Shown here: in pieces, positions 4,627 through 13,544 of the stretch
Numbering within the stretch: position 1 is the first letter of the stretch
Layout of the letters: each line of letters opens with the position of its first letter
DNA from: Bdellovibrio svalbardensis
Lineage (GTDB): Bacteria; Bdellovibrionota; Bdellovibrionia; Bdellovibrionales; Bdellovibrionaceae
Direction: 5' to 3'
Assembly (NCBI RefSeq): GCF_029531655.1
Contig: NZ_JANRMI010000003.1
Span: 310,001-374,000 of the forward strand
DNA: 64,000 bases
Notes under the pieces: generated by a model
Database searches by the model: none
What the model was told of the DNA's origin: nothing
What the model saw: the letters and a program-made list of their open reading frames with translations, nothing else
Translations under genes and position numbers: made by a program

Positions 4627-6024
4627 TTATGGCATCAGACTTGGTGCCACGACTTGATAACGATTCTGAATTTTCTGCCAGATATTTGAATGAGGACCGG
4701 TGATTCCATCCGGGCCCGAAGCACCTGCAAGACCGCGAGATCTTGGATCGAATTGTCCACCTGGTAAGAACTGTCTTAAATTAGGGCCACCGGGTCCTGC
4801 TTTTCCAGCATAGCCGCCATAACCACCGCGACCATCGCTGCCATCGCCGGAGCCGCCTCCGCCGTAACCACCACCTGAGCCACCGCCGCCGCCGCCATAG
4901 AATCCAGCATTCACGCCAGTCGGATCTTGATTCGCTCCACCTGCGCCGCCTTTTCCACCCGCGCCGCCGCCATCACCACCTGCAGATCCCAGATTTGCTC
5001 CAGCACCTTGCTTGCCGTCAACACCAGCCTCTGCGCCGCTTTTGTTCACAACACCTTGTGGGATTTCTGGAAGACCAAAGTTATCACCGCCACCAAATCC
5101 ATCACCGGCGCTGTTGCCCGTGCGAACTGCTGTTTCAATTCCGTTGATTCCCGTGGAGGCGTGGTTAGATTGACCGGAGACACAAGAAGGATCGTTGGGA
5201 TTTTTACTGCACACGCAGACTTTGTTGGAGGCCATTTCAGGCTTCGAACAATCCACCGGCCCCGAAGCCGTACAACCTGCAAGATTTGGATTGGTCTTAC
5301 ACATTTCTGGTAGTGGCGCGGAAGTACCATCAGATTCTTGTGCACAATTTTGTGCCTGCAAAGTTGTCTGTAAGAAATTATTCACTGCTTGCTGAGCGGT
5401 ATCCGCTTTTTTCTGCAAGCTCGTGCAGGATTTTTGAGTTTCTTTTAATGAAGTCGGTGCGGGAGCTTCACCAGTACGGAATGGACCAACCTGACAACCT
5501 GAATTTTGTTGAAAATACTGAATCGCAGCACTGCACGCAGAGCTGCAGCTCCCCACAGAGCTTTGGCAAGTCATCTGATAAGCCGCTGTTGCAGCATTGG
5601 CTGCTTGTGAGATTTTTCCCATGGAGGAACAGGCAGCCTGAACGCTGCTTGAAACTTGCTGACCCAAAACCACCGCTGCCTGCTGAGCTTGCGCCAGTCC
5701 TGTATTCTGAGATTCATCACAATCATTTCGCGCTGTTGTCGTAGCGTCATTACAAGCTTGAGTCAGCTGTGATAAGCGCTGAGCACAAGCAGCCGCAGGA
5801 TCCACCACAGACTGACTCGGAGTTTCTATACAGGTCTCTATGCAGTTCATCTTTACTGCGCCATCCTCATAGCCTCTGCAGTCACTACAGGCGCGACGAG
5901 GGGGGCGATTCATCAAATCTCTCTCTGCTGCATCAAGCTTCCCGGCAGTATAGTCATCCGCGAAACTAAAGTTCCCCAGCAAAATAAACGATAGAAAAAT
6001 AGCTGCAAGATGAGTCATTCCCAT
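4627..6024 (-). CDS. Secreted Cys-rich / Gly-rich protein, tandem paralogue A
   Basis: 465 residues, function not recognised. A signal peptide (about residues 1-22, ending FSFADD) shows export; an ATG at 6018 is an alternative start. The N-terminal half, to about residue 285, is Cys-rich with helical Ala/Gln-rich stretches, a CSDCRGYEDG motif and CKTNPNLAGC followed by KPEMASNKVCVCSKNPNDPSC. A Gly-rich low-complexity region follows. The C-terminus, RQFLPGGQFDPRSRG then AGASGPDGITGP and IWQKIQNRYQVV, recurs almost unchanged in the next gene upstream. That pattern suggests a processed or surface-retained structural protein with a conserved C-terminal handle, but this is inference. It ends head-on against lysC. 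Confidence 0.85.
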   Translation of the reverse strand: MGMTHLAAIFLSFILLGNFSFADDYTAGKLDAAERDLMNRPPRRACSDCRGYEDGAVKMNCIETCIETPSQSVVDPAAACAQRLSQLTQACNDATTTARNDCDESQNTGLAQAQQAAVVLGQQVSSSVQAACSSMGKISQAANAATAAYQMTCQSSVGSCSSACSAAIQYFQQNSGCQVGPFRTGEAPAPTSLKETQKSCTSLQKKADTAQQAVNNFLQTTLQAQNCAQESDGTSAPLPEMCKTNPNLAGCTASGPVDCSKPEMASNKVCVCSKNPNDPSCVSGQSNHASTGINGIETAVRTGNSAGDGFGGGDNFGLPEIPQGVVNKSGAEAGVDGKQGAGANLGSAGGDGGGAGGKGGAGGANQDPTGVNAGFYGGGGGGSGGGYGGGGSGDGSDGRGGYGGYAGKAGPGGPNLRQFLPGGQFDPRSRGLAGASGPDGITGPHSNIWQKIQNRYQVVAPSLMP

Positions 6025-6095: not shown

Positions 6096-7442
6096 TTAAG
6101 GAATCAACGTCGGGCTGACAACCTGATAGCGATTCTGGATTTTTTGCCAAATATTTGTATGAGGCCCGGTAATTCCATCCGGGCCTGAAGCCCCAGCAAT
6201 TCCGCGTGCCTTGGGATCTAAAGTCCCCCCCGGTAAAAACTGGCGCAGATCTGTGGCACTTTTTTTAAATGCATCGCCGACCTTATCTAGCATTCCACCA
6301 AAACCAGATCGGGCATCACCTGAAGAAACGGATGAACTACCATATCCTCCACCGCCACCTCCATAGAATCCAGAATTCACCTCCTGCGAATTCTTGTCGG
6401 TCTTACCTTCTGCTTTCCCAGCTTCGACGCCCCCAACACCACTGCCAAAACCATTTTGACTTAAATTCGCGCCAGCGCCTTGCTTTCCTTCGACACTGGC
6501 TTCAGCAAATGAGCCATTGATTTTCCCTTGCTCGATTGTTGGCAATCCATAGTTATCTTCACCATTCACGCCTGAGTCCTCTGGCTTTACTCTGGAAGCA
6601 AATTCAGCGGCTCCAGGAATATTAGTGCCCGCAGCCGACTTCACCCCCATGCAAGAGGCGTCATTGGGATTTTTGCTGCAGATACAGACTTTGTTGGAAG
6701 CCATCTCAGGTTTTGTGCAATCAACGGGTCCCTTCTGAGTACAGCCTTCAAGATTTGGATTGGCCTTACAGATCTCCAAGGCTGCGGTGGAAACGCCTGA
6801 GGATTCATCGGCGCAGTTTTGCGCATTCGCTGCTGTTAAAGCATAGTTCTGCATAGCCTTAGCGGCTTCGTCTGCTTTTGGATTTAAATCCTGACAGATT
6901 TTCAAAAGATCGCGGGCTTCGTCATAGCCCGCGCTGGATGGCGGTGGTGGTGGTGGACCAAACGCTGCATCCTCAATGCATTTGTTGTGAGATTTCCAAT
7001 GTTCGACGGCTTTACTGCAGGCTGATTGGCAACTTGAAATACTGCTCGCGCAGTTCGCCTGATAAGCCGCCACCGCTGCATTCGCCGCTTGAGAAAGAGC
7101 AGCCATCTTCGAACAAGATGCCTGTATGCTTGCTGCCGTCGCCGTTCCCAAAATAGAAGCGGCTTGGCGCATGGTTCCCATAATGCCTGTATCTTGCTTT
7201 TCATCACAGGAATTTGTGGCTGAGGCATTTTCATTTCGACATTCGGCAATCAAAGCATTCATTTGCCGTACACAGGTCGTACTGTTCACAAGCCCCGAGT
7301 AATCACTTTGATTTGATTCACTGGATTCTGATTGGTCATTGGCGGCAATCAAATATAAGGAGTCCTTATCAGCTTTGGCAAAGGCTGACGTGCTATGAAG
7401 GGCAAGGAGTATAGAGATACAGGCCCGTACAAGATTCTCCAT
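6096..7442 (-). CDS. Secreted Cys-rich / Gly-rich protein, tandem paralogue B
   Basis: 448 residues from the ATG at 7442 (MENLVRACISILLALHSTSA, a signal peptide). The open frame extends to 7496 but the added residues are not signal-like. It is a paralogue of the following gene, 71 bases away, with the same order of blocks: Ala/Cys-rich helical half with a CDEKQDTGIMG block, CKANPNLEGCTQKGPVDC, the KPEMASNKVCICSKNPNDASC motif, DNYGLP, a Gly-rich segment with NSGFYGGGGG, and the C-terminal RQFLPGGTLDPKARG / AGASGPDGITGP / IWQKIQNRYQVV signature. Its Gly-rich part is shorter and a PPPPPP run is present. The pair is a local duplication. Function unknown; extracellular or periplasmic by signal peptide. 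Confidence 0.85.
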   Translation of the reverse strand: MENLVRACISILLALHSTSAFAKADKDSLYLIAANDQSESSESNQSDYSGLVNSTTCVRQMNALIAECRNENASATNSCDEKQDTGIMGTMRQAASILGTATAASIQASCSKMAALSQAANAAVAAYQANCASSISSCQSACSKAVEHWKSHNKCIEDAAFGPPPPPPSSAGYDEARDLLKICQDLNPKADEAAKAMQNYALTAANAQNCADESSGVSTAALEICKANPNLEGCTQKGPVDCTKPEMASNKVCICSKNPNDASCMGVKSAAGTNIPGAAEFASRVKPEDSGVNGEDNYGLPTIEQGKINGSFAEASVEGKQGAGANLSQNGFGSGVGGVEAGKAEGKTDKNSQEVNSGFYGGGGGGYGSSSVSSGDARSGFGGMLDKVGDAFKKSATDLRQFLPGGTLDPKARGIAGASGPDGITGPHTNIWQKIQNRYQVVSPTLIP

Positions 7443-7588
7443 ATCGTTTCTTTTCGGCCGTGGCGATCTCACTCTAAACATACAAATGTATTGCAATGAG
7501 AAGGCTTTCAGCTTTTTAATCTTTAGAGCAGGTATTGTGTTAATTTCGAGATGAAACTCAACTAGTCTCAGATCACAGGGGAGATAAA

Positions 7589-8077: not shown

Positions 8078-9544
8078 TTATTTCACCCAAAGTTCCATAC
8101 GCGGAACACTCACACCACTTCCCATAAGTTCATCTGAAGCGGGAATTCCTGCCGGAGTTCCCCAGGTAGTCTGAGCTCCCACTCCGTAAAACCAGTTTAC
8201 GCTTCCGACAGACCCATCGGCGAGAGAGTTTCCTGGGATTCCATACTCCAGACCTCCCCAGTAGTTACTGGTCGACTGAATCGCAATGCCCACATAGCCC
8301 GCGGCTGCTTGTGACGTGAAATTGCTCGTTTGTGTCCACCAGTTTCTGGCAGTGGTGGAGCCTGGCCAGTCAATTTTTAACTCATATTTTCCACTGCGCA
8401 CGAAAGAAGAAAGTCGACTTAAAATAGAATATCGCGACGCTAAGGGTGCCGTCGTATTGTACGAAAGAGCTTCGGCGTTATTCGCAAACAGACCGCCCAG
8501 TGGATAGTCGTGGTACATCACTCTTGTCCACCCCCCACCATCGGTAGTCATATCACAAACTACAGGAATGGGCGTGCCGATATTGCCGGGATCAATCGTG
8601 TAGATACCTGAACCGATCGATGCGCCACTATCTAAGATATCTTTGCAGGAATTATACGAAACATAGGTGTCGTCTTCCTTGATCCATAGATTCACTTCTG
8701 CAACTCCCCCAGTAGCTATGATTCCCGTATCTGCCGGGATTCCAGCCGGAGTGCTATAAGCTGCCGTACTACCAATGGCATAAAACCAGTTAGTATGCTG
8801 AACAGATCCATCAAGAAGCGAACTATTGGAATTCGTCGGACCATGCGCACCATTACCCAATTCAAGACCTGCCCAATTTGACAATCGCGTGTCTGTATAA
8901 GCGTTCACTGCAATCGGAACGATGCCTGCCGCCGCGACATCTGAAAGTGGATTCGTTGTTTGCAGCCAAATATTTTTTTGACTATATCCAGGCCAAGTCA
9001 GACGAAAGCGATACTTTCCGGCAGTCACAAAATCCGGAATCTTATTCAAAATAGAATAAAGATTCCCTGTGGGCGCTCCCGTGTTTTTACTAATTGCATC
9101 TCCGACAGTGGTAAAATATCCCCCGGCAATATTGTGTCGGAAAATTCGCGTCCAGCCTCCACCATCTGCCGTCATGTCACAGTATGCCTGATAAGAAGTT
9201 CCAGCGCCCGCCCCATCAGAATCGATCGTATAGGTGCCACTCGCTGGACTTCCCATTAAAGTCAGAATTTCCTTACACGATTTCGGATAACACTGAGTGG
9301 CGGCTATGAAGGCCGGTTTACTTGCCGCGATGAACTGCGCCCATTCAGTTGTCGAATGAGTCGGCACAAACAAGTCACTGCTTGCATGGTTATTCTGCAC
9401 GGTATAGCAGGCTCCTTGAGCGCCACCATCTTTCGCATAGATTCTCATCGAACCGCCACCCGCAGGGATACGATAGCCCTCACTCAAGGTGTTGATCCCT
9501 GCAATCCATGGAAAAAGAATAAGCATGACTAAAAACTTCTTCAT
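8078..9544 (-). CDS. Secreted protein with two fibrinogen-like GGGWT domains
   Basis: 488 residues with an N-terminal signal sequence (MKKFLVMLILFPWIAG). Two homologous units of about 190 residues follow a short head. Each opens with a CKEIL/CKDIL block, then the fibrinogen C-terminal signature (YCDMTADGGGWTR at 121-133, VCDMTTDGGGWTR at 329-341), a GKYRFRLTWPG or GKYELKIDWPG strand, a GLELG/GLEYG block, NWFY and a closing LWIK/LWVK. In animals such domains bind acetylated sugars or proteins; in bacteria they are found sporadically. The gene begins 1 base after the stop of the giant fibre gene, so the two are co-translated. I infer a surface or fibre-associated recognition protein. Loss of the usual calcium and sugar-site residues could not be judged. 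Confidence 0.85.
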   Translation of the reverse strand: MKKFLVMLILFPWIAGINTLSEGYRIPAGGGSMRIYAKDGGAQGACYTVQNNHASSDLFVPTHSTTEWAQFIAASKPAFIAATQCYPKSCKEILTLMGSPASGTYTIDSDGAGAGTSYQAYCDMTADGGGWTRIFRHNIAGGYFTTVGDAISKNTGAPTGNLYSILNKIPDFVTAGKYRFRLTWPGYSQKNIWLQTTNPLSDVAAAGIVPIAVNAYTDTRLSNWAGLELGNGAHGPTNSNSSLLDGSVQHTNWFYAIGSTAAYSTPAGIPADTGIIATGGVAEVNLWIKEDDTYVSYNSCKDILDSGASIGSGIYTIDPGNIGTPIPVVCDMTTDGGGWTRVMYHDYPLGGLFANNAEALSYNTTAPLASRYSILSRLSSFVRSGKYELKIDWPGSTTARNWWTQTSNFTSQAAAGYVGIAIQSTSNYWGGLEYGIPGNSLADGSVGSVNWFYGVGAQTTWGTPAGIPASDELMGSGVSVPRMELWVK

Positions 9545-9545
9545 T

Positions 9546-12500
9546 CTATTTTTCGCTTAAGATTTTTTCAAGACGCTCAAGGCGCACTTTCAAATCTTGA
9601 TTTTCTTTCTCAAGTTTATTTAACCGAGTTTGAGAATTATCCTGAACACTTGCCACAGTTCGCTGTACGTTTTGAACTTGCGATTCACAGCGAGTTTCCG
9701 CTTGAAGGCGTTCCTGATGTTCCTGCTTTAACGCTTCCACCAGAATGGCAACGATATTTCCGTACTGAACGGCTTTATATCCTGATTTTCTATCAGTCTT
9801 CACAAGCTCAGGATAAATTTTCTCAACTTCCTGAGCGATGAAGCCCACAGTCTTTTCATCATTACTTTTCCAAACGAAACTCACACCACGAAGCTGCAAC
9901 ACTTTTGCCAAGGCATCTGGCAAAGTGATGATATCTTTTTTCAAGCGCGCATCTGAGGTGTAAAGATAAGAGGCTGCTTTGACATTGCCATTAACTTCCA
10001 GAACCTCACTTGGCGCTGTCGTACCAATGCCAACATTTCCTGATGATAAGATTGTTATTTTAGCAGTATCTAAAGGACCAATCATCAATGAACCCGAAAC
10101 ACCATTCGTAAGACCAAAACCAATAGTTGTCGAATTCGAAGCCGTCACTGTGTTTGAGCGCCCAAAGATACTGGCATTTCCGGCATTATTGCTCACCGTA
10201 TTTGAAGAACCTATGACTGTCAGGTTGTAACCAAAATTCGACAAGCTTGTAGTAAAGCTATTGGAACTACCGACGACATGCATTCCCGAGGCATTGCCTC
10301 CCCCGGAATTCGTGATGCTATTGCTGGATCCTAAAATATAGTTTCCGCCGGCAAACGTAGAGTTACCACCACCGATAATCGCGTCTCCACTTACTTGGAA
10401 TTTAGTCACAGGAGTTGTGGTTCCAATTCCCACGTTACCACCGGCTTGAACAGTCACTCGAGTCGCGTTATTCGTTTTAATATTTAAGTCAAAGTTGTCA
10501 TTGTTGCCCAGGTTTGAAGTGGCCCCAAAACTATTACCGCCATTTACAAACCCAGAATAAATTGAACTCATAGCATAGCAGCCGTAATTTCCAGAAGCAT
10601 CGAAACTCAAAATTTGATTTACAGCGCAGGTTACTGCCTGCTGAACTGTTCCAGTTCCATTTGTTCCAAGCAAACGGTTGGCGGCCAAAGAAGAGGCACC
10701 AGTACCACCATTTGCAATCGGCAAAACTCCAGTTACCGCAGCCGACTGACTCATGTCGATCGCGCCAAAGACGGGGGCGCCGCCCCCAGCAGGAACTCGC
10801 AGTACTTGATTTGCCGTGCCTGCGGCCGTCGACGTCGGACTTGCACCGACTCCTCCACCAAGAACGACTCCGTTAGCGGTAAGAAGTGACGATGAAGCCA
10901 TCGTCGATGACGAAGAAAAATATGGAATTCCACCTGAGGTGCCACTGGTCAAACCAGTTCCACCTTTGCCAACAGTTACTGTATTCAAAGTGGGATTTGG
11001 ATAAGTACCAGATAGATCCCCACCAGCAGCGCCACCAGGCGCAACTCCCGAAATAGTGACGTTCGCTGCCGCAGTTAATCGACCTTGGGCATCCACCGTA
11101 AATGTTGGCACTTGTGTTGCCGATCCATAGGCGGCCGGGGTCACTGCGGTATTTGCCAATGAAATCGTTCCACTCGATGTAATAGGCCCACCTGACAGTC
11201 CAGTCCCCGTCGCAACACTTGTGACTGTCCCATTTGTTGGAGTCACCCACTTCAAACCACCAGACTGTGCGGAGTCCGCTGAAAGAACTTGGCCGTTAGT
11301 ACCAACAGTCAGTGACACATCGTTAGTTCCATCATTCGTAATTAAAGCACCTTTAGTAGAAATAGGAGAGATTGCATTGAACGCAGTAATTGCTGTTGAG
11401 GCACCCGTACCGCCATTGGCAAGTGGCAAGACCCCTGTCACTTCAGATGCTAAATTGACAGAAGCTCCATTCGTGGCGGCCGTGAGTCTACCTTGAGCAT
11501 CGACAGTAATATTGGCTCTGGTATAAGAACCCGCAGTCACAGCAGTATTTGCCAGATTGAGTGTCACTGCTCCCGATGAGCCACCACCAGAGAGTCCCGT
11601 ACCAGCGCTCACACTTGTAATTGTTCCACCTGAACCATTTGCAGAAGCAATAGAGACCCAAGCTCCTGAATTATACTGATAGATAACTTTAGAATCGGTC
11701 GCAAAATAGATTGCGCCCGCAGAAGGAGAAGCAGGCTTACTTGCATCCAAACCTGTTTGAATCGACGGAGCCCCTCCCGCATTAGAAACCAAAGAATCGG
11801 TAATACCATATCCACTTAATGTCGTCGGTTTACCTGTGGTGATTTTAGTCCAATCCAAAGAAGGAATATCTGTCGCAGCCAAAGCCGCGGAAGAAGTTAC
11901 ACGCCCTTTAGCATCATAGGTAATTTTTGTTCCGGTCGATGCCGTCACGATGGCGGCAAGAGTAGGATTTGGATAGGTTCCGGTTAAATCCCCGCCTGCA
12001 GCTCCGGTAGGCGCACGAGAATTTGTAAGGCGCGTATCATTGCCAAGAACGACTTCTGCAGCCACAGCATCACCCGCCGCAGGAAAATTCTTTGTCGCTG
12101 CTGTCCCCAACCCAAGATTAGTTCTGGCCGTCGCCGCCGTCAGCTCACTCAAATTGTTCGCTGGATTTAATGGAGTGAATCCCAAAGCCGTTTGTTTATT
12201 ATTAAAGACCGTCCAATCTGCTGCTGCCAAATATCCATCTACGGCTCCCGTGGCTCTGGCCATAGAAATCAATGGTGTTGTTGCGCCATTGGTAACTGTC
12301 ACCGGTGCGGTGCCTGAAACGTTTGTGACAGTTCCACCCGCGTTGCTATCTGCAGCTGGAGCCCAATGGGTTCCGTTAAATTTTAAAACTTGTCCAATAC
12401 TTGGTGCGACTGTGAAATTCAAAGGATAACCTTTGATTCTATCAACACTGCTCGCACCTTGAGTGCCCGTGACATCTCCTGCTAGATTGCCGCTGAAGTT

Positions 12501-13544
12501 TGTCGCCAAAGAGGCTGACCCCACCGCCAAAGAAGATTGATTGGTACACTGCCAGCCTGTCGCCACATTCCAAGTCAAAATTTGGCCTGACGAACAAACA
12601 ATCGGAGACAAGGTCGACCCGGTGGAGGAATCAGTTCCCACCAAACGGTTCACACCTGGATTTGCAAAAAGTTTCGAAGTTGAAACAGCGGCATCAGCAA
12701 TTTTAGAGTTGGTGACAGAATTATCCGCCAGACTTGGATTCGGATAGGTCCCGTTAAGAACTCCTCCCGCAGCACCCGTCGGAGTGCGCGCATCGCTAAA
12801 ACGAGAATCATTCCCGGCAGCCACAGTGCCCGCAATAGTTCCAACATTCAAAGTCACTACCGGATTCACCGTATCCGCACTAACAGTTAAATAGGGATTG
12901 CTTCCCGCGGAGGCTGTCACGGTTTTCACAGTGCCACCACTTGCGCCACTGACACCCGAACATCCAAACTTTCTGGTACTGGCATCCCAAGTTAGAAAGT
13001 TTCCACTATCACAATTGATATTGTTATTAACTTCAGTCTTTAAAACAAAATCCGTGGCAACATTACTTCCCAGCATCGCTGACGAAGCAGAGAATCCCGC
13101 ATAAGGTACTGTGCGAATCTCATTGTCCGGGGAAATAGTTTTCCACGAATTTCCATCGTGAAACTTCACCCGCAAGAAACGCCCATCCGTCAAACCAGGA
13201 TTATATGGAGAGTTCCCATCGCATGTTTGCGAAAGAGCATTATTAAAGGCATCTAAAATAGTAAAAGTAGGTGCTGCGGGATAACTGTGTGAATTGCCGA
13301 TGGTGGCATCAAACACTCCGCTGGAGTTCGTCATATCTACATGATTCAACTGCTCGCGATATAACACGCAAGTTTTGTTCGGCGCGAGAACTTCGAATTG
13401 AAAGGAAACGCTAGAATATTCTAGAGGAGAGCCATCTGATTTAAGGATGCGCCCTTGATAGGTCAGTGTCGCAGGCGCCGCATTTGCGCGCACTACGCCC
13501 AGCCATAGCAAAAATAAAAAAGGTAACGTACAGGTTTTTCTCAT
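9546..13544 (-). CDS. Giant fibre adhesin with peptidase S74 chaperone end (mosaic adhesive trimer type)
   Basis: 1332 residues. A signal peptide (1-23) is followed by a head domain beginning TLTYQGRILKSDGSPLEY. The long fibre is built of phage-tail-like repeats: GTYPNP[ST]L units near 265, 523 and 847, LP[LI]ANGGTGAS near 706 and 941, and FTVDAQGRLTAA-type units near 680 and 816. Residues 1055-1145 have a GSSN[ST] periodic beta-roll like a YadA head, and NVGIGTT..P motifs occur near 1037 and 1180. The C-terminus is an intramolecular chaperone of endosialidase (peptidase S74): YTSDARLKKDI holds the Ser1197/Lys1202 self-cleavage dyad, then GFIAQEVEKIYPELV and a coiled coil (about 1268-1332). 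Proteins of this design are the mosaic adhesive trimers that Bdellovibrio uses to recognise prey; assignment to that family is by architecture. Confidence 0.92.
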   Translation of the reverse strand: MRKTCTLPFLFLLWLGVVRANAAPATLTYQGRILKSDGSPLEYSSVSFQFEVLAPNKTCVLYREQLNHVDMTNSSGVFDATIGNSHSYPAAPTFTILDAFNNALSQTCDGNSPYNPGLTDGRFLRVKFHDGNSWKTISPDNEIRTVPYAGFSASSAMLGSNVATDFVLKTEVNNNINCDSGNFLTWDASTRKFGCSGVSGASGGTVKTVTASAGSNPYLTVSADTVNPVVTLNVGTIAGTVAAGNDSRFSDARTPTGAAGGVLNGTYPNPSLADNSVTNSKIADAAVSTSKLFANPGVNRLVGTDSSTGSTLSPIVCSSGQILTWNVATGWQCTNQSSLAVGSASLATNFSGNLAGDVTGTQGASSVDRIKGYPLNFTVAPSIGQVLKFNGTHWAPAADSNAGGTVTNVSGTAPVTVTNGATTPLISMARATGAVDGYLAAADWTVFNNKQTALGFTPLNPANNLSELTAATARTNLGLGTAATKNFPAAGDAVAAEVVLGNDTRLTNSRAPTGAAGGDLTGTYPNPTLAAIVTASTGTKITYDAKGRVTSSAALAATDIPSLDWTKITTGKPTTLSGYGITDSLVSNAGGAPSIQTGLDASKPASPSAGAIYFATDSKVIYQYNSGAWVSIASANGSGGTITSVSAGTGLSGGGSSGAVTLNLANTAVTAGSYTRANITVDAQGRLTAATNGASVNLASEVTGVLPLANGGTGASTAITAFNAISPISTKGALITNDGTNDVSLTVGTNGQVLSADSAQSGGLKWVTPTNGTVTSVATGTGLSGGPITSSGTISLANTAVTPAAYGSATQVPTFTVDAQGRLTAAANVTISGVAPGGAAGGDLSGTYPNPTLNTVTVGKGGTGLTSGTSGGIPYFSSSSTMASSSLLTANGVVLGGGVGASPTSTAAGTANQVLRVPAGGGAPVFGAIDMSQSAAVTGVLPIANGGTGASSLAANRLLGTNGTGTVQQAVTCAVNQILSFDASGNYGCYAMSSIYSGFVNGGNSFGATSNLGNNDNFDLNIKTNNATRVTVQAGGNVGIGTTTPVTKFQVSGDAIIGGGNSTFAGGNYILGSSNSITNSGGGNASGMHVVGSSNSFTTSLSNFGYNLTVIGSSNTVSNNAGNASIFGRSNTVTASNSTTIGFGLTNGVSGSLMIGPLDTAKITILSSGNVGIGTTAPSEVLEVNGNVKAASYLYTSDARLKKDIITLPDALAKVLQLRGVSFVWKSNDEKTVGFIAQEVEKIYPELVKTDRKSGYKAVQYGNIVAILVEALKQEHQERLQAETRCESQVQNVQRTVASVQDNSQTRLNKLEKENQDLKVRLERLEKILSEK

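Follow-up and report, generated by a model that had tools for sequence, protein, structure and literature searches.

Neighbouring genes of Bdellovibrio svalbardensis probably encode a two-piece adhesive fibre with a fibrinogen-like head

Two adjacent genes of Bdellovibrio svalbardensis probably encode a single adhesive fibre in two pieces: a fibre of the mosaic adhesive trimer (MAT) family that ends in an S74 domain, and a head of fibrinogen-like domains (FReDs) which, through an N-terminal domain (NT), would be docked on the tip left by S74 cleavage. Both genes lie on the minus strand of the window, the stretch of 64,000 nucleotides that was analysed (NZ_JANRMI010000003.1, positions 310,001 to 374,000), and comprise the following features.

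9546–13544, minus strand: gene of the S74-terminating MAT fibre, 1332 residues with a signal peptide (open reading frame, Bdello_MAT_N and Peptidase_S74)
13035–13508, minus strand: MAT N-terminal domain, residues 13–170 (NCBIfam NF053851)
9957–10046, minus strand: putative mature fibre tip, residues 1167–1196, SSGNVGIGTTAPSEVLEVNGNVKAASYLYT (conserved tip motif)
9549–9956, minus strand: S74 autoprotease/chaperone and coiled-coil tail, residues 1197–1332, with SDARLK (Pfam S74, alignment with S16 gp37)
9545, minus strand: single base between the fibre stop TAG and the start ATG of the FReD gene (TAG-a-ATG)
8078–9544, minus strand: gene of the double-FReD protein, 488 residues with a signal peptide, a putative detachable tip or head (open reading frame, Pfam, NCBIfam)
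9305–9499, minus strand: NT domain, residues 16–80 (about 65 residues), putative fibre-tip adaptor (alignment)
8678–9289, minus strand: FReD 1, residues 86–289 (Fibrinogen_C/GGGWT_bact and our own profile)
8081–8671, minus strand: FReD 2, residues 292–488, the candidate C-terminal head (AF2 model, VIA matches)

The fibre is a member of the S74 subgroup of the MAT family. It matches NCBIfam Bdello_MAT_N (NF053851) with 215 bits over residues 13–170 (cut-off 60) and Pfam Peptidase_S74 (PF13884) with 63.8 bits over residues 1197–1249 (cut-off 22), and its beta-rich shaft matches the solved MAT structures 8OML and 8OND. The same N-terminal domain, signal peptide, beta-rich shaft and S74 end with SDxxxK are found in the MATs of Bdellovibrio bacteriovorus (PMC10769870); by inference from that work (Caulton 2024), the N-terminal domain is expected to anchor the fibre on the predator surface. 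Autocleavage (e.g. of Bd3182), trimer formation and surface display are reported for other MATs in the same paper. The SDARLK sequence at residue 1197 is the S74 SDxxxK motif, and the fibre aligns at the cut site with gp37 of phage S16 (6F45_A, E 0.0027); from the behaviour of the family, self-cleavage of the S74 part is expected ahead of S1197. Profile searches of the same genome gave 22 MAT_N and 16 S74 matches. The original prediction described the fibre as "giant"; however, its 1332 residues are unremarkable for the family, the MATs of this genome ranging from 678 to 4026 residues.

The 488-residue protein scores 56.6 bits against Pfam Fibrinogen_C (cut-off 22) and 118 bits, in two stretches, against NCBIfam GGGWT_bact. 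AF2 gave a weak model of the full length (pLDDT 58, with the distal halves below 50), and FReD 2 was therefore predicted separately with 89 relatives, yielding a pLDDT of 96.4 and a pTM of 0.92. VIA comparison of this model with Angptl3, tenascin, ficolin and tachylectin gave Z-scores of 13–14.7 (14.7 over 177 residues, about 14 over 180–186 residues of solved FReDs), so that in the model FReD 2 is a complete FReD fold which matches animal FReDs over the whole domain. With ficolins, tachylectin 5A, FIBCD1 and GGGWT_bact it shares the YCDMTxDGGGWT core and, along the entire domain, the fold (Z about 14). Unlike in the animal FReD lectins, however, the motif of the ficolin calcium/acetyl site, comprising the calcium loop and disulfide (DxDND..NC..WY..C), is absent from both FReDs of the window, as it is from every two-FReD Bdellovibrio protein examined. 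One FReD of most five-FReD relatives keeps the motif, as do two other proteins (L094 and L089); relatives that carry it include L095 and L154. The suggestion that these domains bind acetylated sugars as in animals is thus not borne out, and the sequences argue that the analogy with animal lectins should not extend to this protein. In the alignment of relatives the C-terminal FReD is the most variable part, with the distal half replaced in one subgroup, as would be expected of a recognition head. Searches of phage and plasmid collections returned no full-length relatives of the FReD protein.

Elsewhere in the window, two adjacent paralogous secreted proteins (4627–6024 and 6096–7496, minus strand) have glycine-rich C-terminal halves and a common ending, PGG..DP..RG.AGASGPDGITGPHxNIWQKIQNRYQVV, and belong to no Pfam family.

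The two open reading frames are indeed separated by one base, as originally predicted. No clear ribosome-binding site is seen before the ATG of the FReD gene, and translational coupling of the two genes is therefore likely. By itself such a gap says little, as in a sample of the same genome about 18% of adjacent open reading frame pairs are equally close; what exceeds chance is the conservation of the pairing. Promoter and terminator scans gave no signal above the shuffled background. At partnered loci, overlaps of stop and start recur (e.g. ATGA, TAATG), and together with the conserved gene order they lend good comparative support to the idea that the two proteins are made together, presumably from a common transcript.

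The survey of the pairing covered 197 near genomes, searched for FReD relatives, and 369 from the phylum, searched with the GGGWT profile. Among 32 clusters with genes of at least two FReDs, the immediate upstream gene is an S74 fibre in 26, a count that ignores common descent and comes from loci partly chosen for holding FReD, NT or S74. The spacing in these 26 loci is −38 to +11 bp and the FReD genes carry two to five FReDs; nine of the loci are in Bdellovibrio and 17 in a distant family of Bacteriovoracaceae type (Bacteriovoracaceae, Halobacteriovoraceae), whose fibres have a MAT_N domain that is at most barely detectable. Chance adjacency is rejected as a full explanation, the pairing recurring in 26 loci of two families. 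None of the approximately 22 stand-alone single-FReD genes (MAT_N fibres set aside) lies directly behind an S74 fibre. In one genome (G006, at 2.492–2.499 Mb) two FReD genes accompany the fibre. The order is reversed at one locus (L107, genome G013), where an NT-FReD gene is found 283 bp upstream of a tip-bearing fibre. At another (L081:7806–8510, genome G016) two FReD genes have lost their upstream fibre, of which the coiled-coil C-terminal end alone remains, fused behind an unrelated open reading frame.

In none of the loci read are FReD and S74 combined in a single polypeptide, and three MAT_N fibres that have no S74, one of them in the same genome, bear a C-terminal FReD. This distribution would follow from autocleavage, which would remove any part encoded beyond S74 in the same gene: behind S74 fibres the head would need a gene of its own, while in MATs without S74 it can be fused. 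The fused MAT of this genome (L034:8363–12433; C1:810362–814432, minus strand), which has a C-terminal fibrinogen-like tip, sits between two S74 MATs in a tandem cluster of three MATs.

The residues just before the S74 cut also go with the partner gene. The commonest form of the tip is LEVxGNVKAxxYLYT/SD (the stroke marks the cut). Among 150 distinct S74 fibres, the tip is common to all 26 FReD-partnered fibres by eye and to 24 of them by regular expression; the expression is found in none of the other 124. When partnered fibres of the distant family are compared with the window fibre, identity is 70% over the last 30 residues but falls to 28% over the 50 residues before them; the N-terminal domain and the tail reach 29% and 30%, respectively. 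Conservation in that family is confined to the last 30 residues and S74 and does not extend to the shaft. For unpartnered fibres of the same genome, tip identity to the window fibre averages 41%. YLYT/SD occurs in 10 of 24 genomes of the genus, once in each, always in a fibre adjoining an NT-FReD gene. That the tip follows the partner, and that fused versions exist in other MATs, speaks well for the earlier suggestion that the second protein could be a tip or co-receptor of the fibre.

The NT domain is not confined to FReD proteins. A profile of it finds further proteins that have no FReDs, several of them adjoining S74 fibres. In the same genome (C2:447.55–448.64 kb) a glycine-rich NT protein is encoded 96 bp behind a MAT with the tip TVGATAFYYT; other cases are a glycine-rich protein 13 bp from an S74 fibre (G020), a TIG-type protein (G103), a thrombospondin-1 protein in convergent orientation (G242), and four further NT proteins beside S74 fibres that have no known head. 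A relaxed tip, [YF]x[YHT][TSA]/SD, defined after these additional cases had been seen, is present in 34 of the 36 S74 fibres beside an NT gene and in 2 of the 119 that are not (Fisher 2e-29, kinship ignored). The exceptions are two fibres with the relaxed tip and no NT neighbour, and two with an NT neighbour and no such tip.

These observations bear on the possibility that the FReD protein is a lectin in its own right, secreted or present at the surface, which is co-expressed with the fibre to serve the same stage of predation but is not attached to it. The protein has its own signal peptide, close neighbours on the same strand are common anyway (18%), and there are NT-FReD genes with no adjacent S74 fibre: in G007, a tandem pair in G013, a second copy in G018, two copies in G020, and, with an eroded fibre, in G016. 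Orphan genes of this kind (L086, L087, L088, L089 and L080) encode two or three FReDs; their products could dock in trans. An unattached lectin, which we regard as unlikely, does not account, however, for the fact that it is the last 30 residues ahead of the cut that go with the partner and the shaft does not, or for the pairing of similar tips with NT proteins that have other heads.

It is also conceivable that folding or cleavage of S74, and not docking, is what keeps the tip conserved, in which case the shared tip would reflect a need of a few S74 lineages and the FReD gene would merely hitch-hike in the cassette. Tip and S74 are contiguous, and the S74 domains of partnered Bdellovibrio fibres form one clade. 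Against this, the same SDxxxK site is preceded by quite unlike residues in many other S74 fibres. In a tree of S74 domains from which the tip was left out, partnered fibres are spread over several clades, the distant family being represented in separate ones, and one of the partnered clades stands beside two unpartnered fibres that lack the tip, although the deep forks of this tree are weak. The S74-lineage explanation appears improbable to us, more so than the unattached lectin.

In the two-piece fibre that we favour, the C-terminal S74 chaperone would aid trimerisation of the MAT fibre and then, as in its family, cut itself off between T1196 and S1197, leaving a mature tip that ends in LEVNGNVKAASYLYT. 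The FReD protein would be translated from the message of the fibre, with a signal peptide of its own for export, and its NT domain would dock on the newly exposed tip strand, with the tip as the socket and NT as the plug, and the two FReDs would become a distal, receptor-contacting head, displayed at the surface and presumably taking part in prey recognition. On other S74 fibres of these predators, NT may act as a general adaptor that carries different heads.

A comparable arrangement is known from phages. The S74-type chaperone of S16 gp37 autocleaves and exposes a surface where gp38 docks by its N-terminal part (PMC7917993), and module exchange between related phages cuts through the strand before the chaperone (PMC6851490). 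The window pair resembles gp37–gp38 of T2 and S16 in having, by analogy, a trimeric beta-helical fibre and a chaperone of S74 type whose autocleavage at (S)SD exposes a docking strand; like gp38, the FReD protein is encoded by a separate gene and has a conserved N-terminal attachment part and a variable distal part (PMC7917993, PMC6851490). The gp38-type layout is thus found here, with a gene directly behind that of an S74-chaperone fibre whose product is conserved at the N-terminus and variable at the C-terminus. The Pfam, NCBIfam and PHROGs matches of the FReD/NT protein include none to gp38. The heads also differ, being fibrinogen-like here and a polyglycine sandwich in gp38, and gp37–gp38 is part of a virion, whereas the window encodes a cellular surface fibre with signal peptides. 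The best explanation, drawn from this analogy, is that the window pair works like gp37–gp38, yet the FReD protein is not a gp38. Slightly less probable even than the S74-lineage explanation is that the FReD protein is mainly a helper in fibre folding or assembly, like gp38 of phage T4, and is later released: its gene lies directly behind the fibre gene, as T4 gene 38 does, and T2-type gp38 is first a chaperone that afterwards stays as an adhesin (PMC7917993), but S74 already supplies a chaperone, two to five domains of ligand-binding type with a conserved start and variable end suit an adhesin, and the other partners are of propeller, glycine-rich or TSP1 type.

Another phage parallel is gp35 of Vibrio phage KVP40 and its relatives (phrog_16097), which have FReD-like sequence and a gene 8 bp behind a large tail-fibre gene. 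Unlike in the window, the upstream fibre there has no S74 match and the gp35-like proteins have no GGGWT_bact match. Tail-fibre hinge proteins of this gp35-like kind, with a FReD-like region, are encoded in the KVP40-like Vibrio phages D484 (L354:6977–9649) and V09 (L355:6977–9661).

MAT fibres and phage gp37/gp38 were already known. The known MAT tips that are described in the main text of the MAT paper (TNF-like, C-type lectin and beta-sandwich) are part of the fibre chain (PMC10769870), whereas the head proposed here is the product of a second gene; that main text mentions neither fibrinogen domains nor operons. Among the papers searched, none combines Bdellovibrio with fibrinogen-like proteins.

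The original prediction also raised the presence of domain proteins next to other MAT genes, and these do occur: an LVIVD propeller, the glycine-rich protein described above and, at a MAT that has no S74, an RCC1 propeller. The LVIVD propeller belongs to a second cassette, in which the tip DIQ[FY]TGxxTD[VI]/SD is accompanied by a secreted LVIVD propeller in four of four loci from both families (the same genome, G005, G020 and, in the distant family, G197), the propeller gene lying 2–11 bp off or overlapping. The propellers of these loci (L039, L265, L266 and L243) have 1384–1397 residues, and the partner gene is incomplete at L243. The RCC1-type propeller is a secreted protein of 892 residues, encoded 5 bp behind a MAT of 3364 residues in the same genome (L045:2249–15027, C2). 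At five loci (L219, L233, L269, L271 and L273), a lipoprotein-like open reading frame of about 104 residues (GCSMEASLEQ...FQDPAKTTGLVSGSTQTGTA) comes after an S74 fibre whose tip resembles GNLTTAGTVNGA; this is possibly a third cassette.

We lean slightly towards a broader reading for the Bdellovibrionota, in which prey recognition would be of a plug-in type: autocleavage of S74 would lay bare a docking strand that acts as a code, and a shared adaptor domain would allow heads to be exchanged, these being FReD arrays and glycine-rich, TIG and thrombospondin-type proteins, possibly also supplied in trans from orphan genes, while a second, unrelated code, the DIQxTGxxTDV tip, would take LVIVD propellers. 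How Bdellovibrio recognises multiple prey is a long-open question to which the MAT fibres gave a first answer, but no separate adhesive head was evident for the MATs that end in S74. Should neighbouring genes encode these heads, the recognition repertoire would be larger than the list of MATs, and it would be readable from genomes by matching fibre tip to partner. The cassette is probably present in B. bacteriovorus HD100 and should thus be testable in the model strain. If true, the finding would carry the gp37–gp38 principle from phage tail fibres over to fibres that a cell bears on its own surface, where the head is a fibrinogen-type domain.
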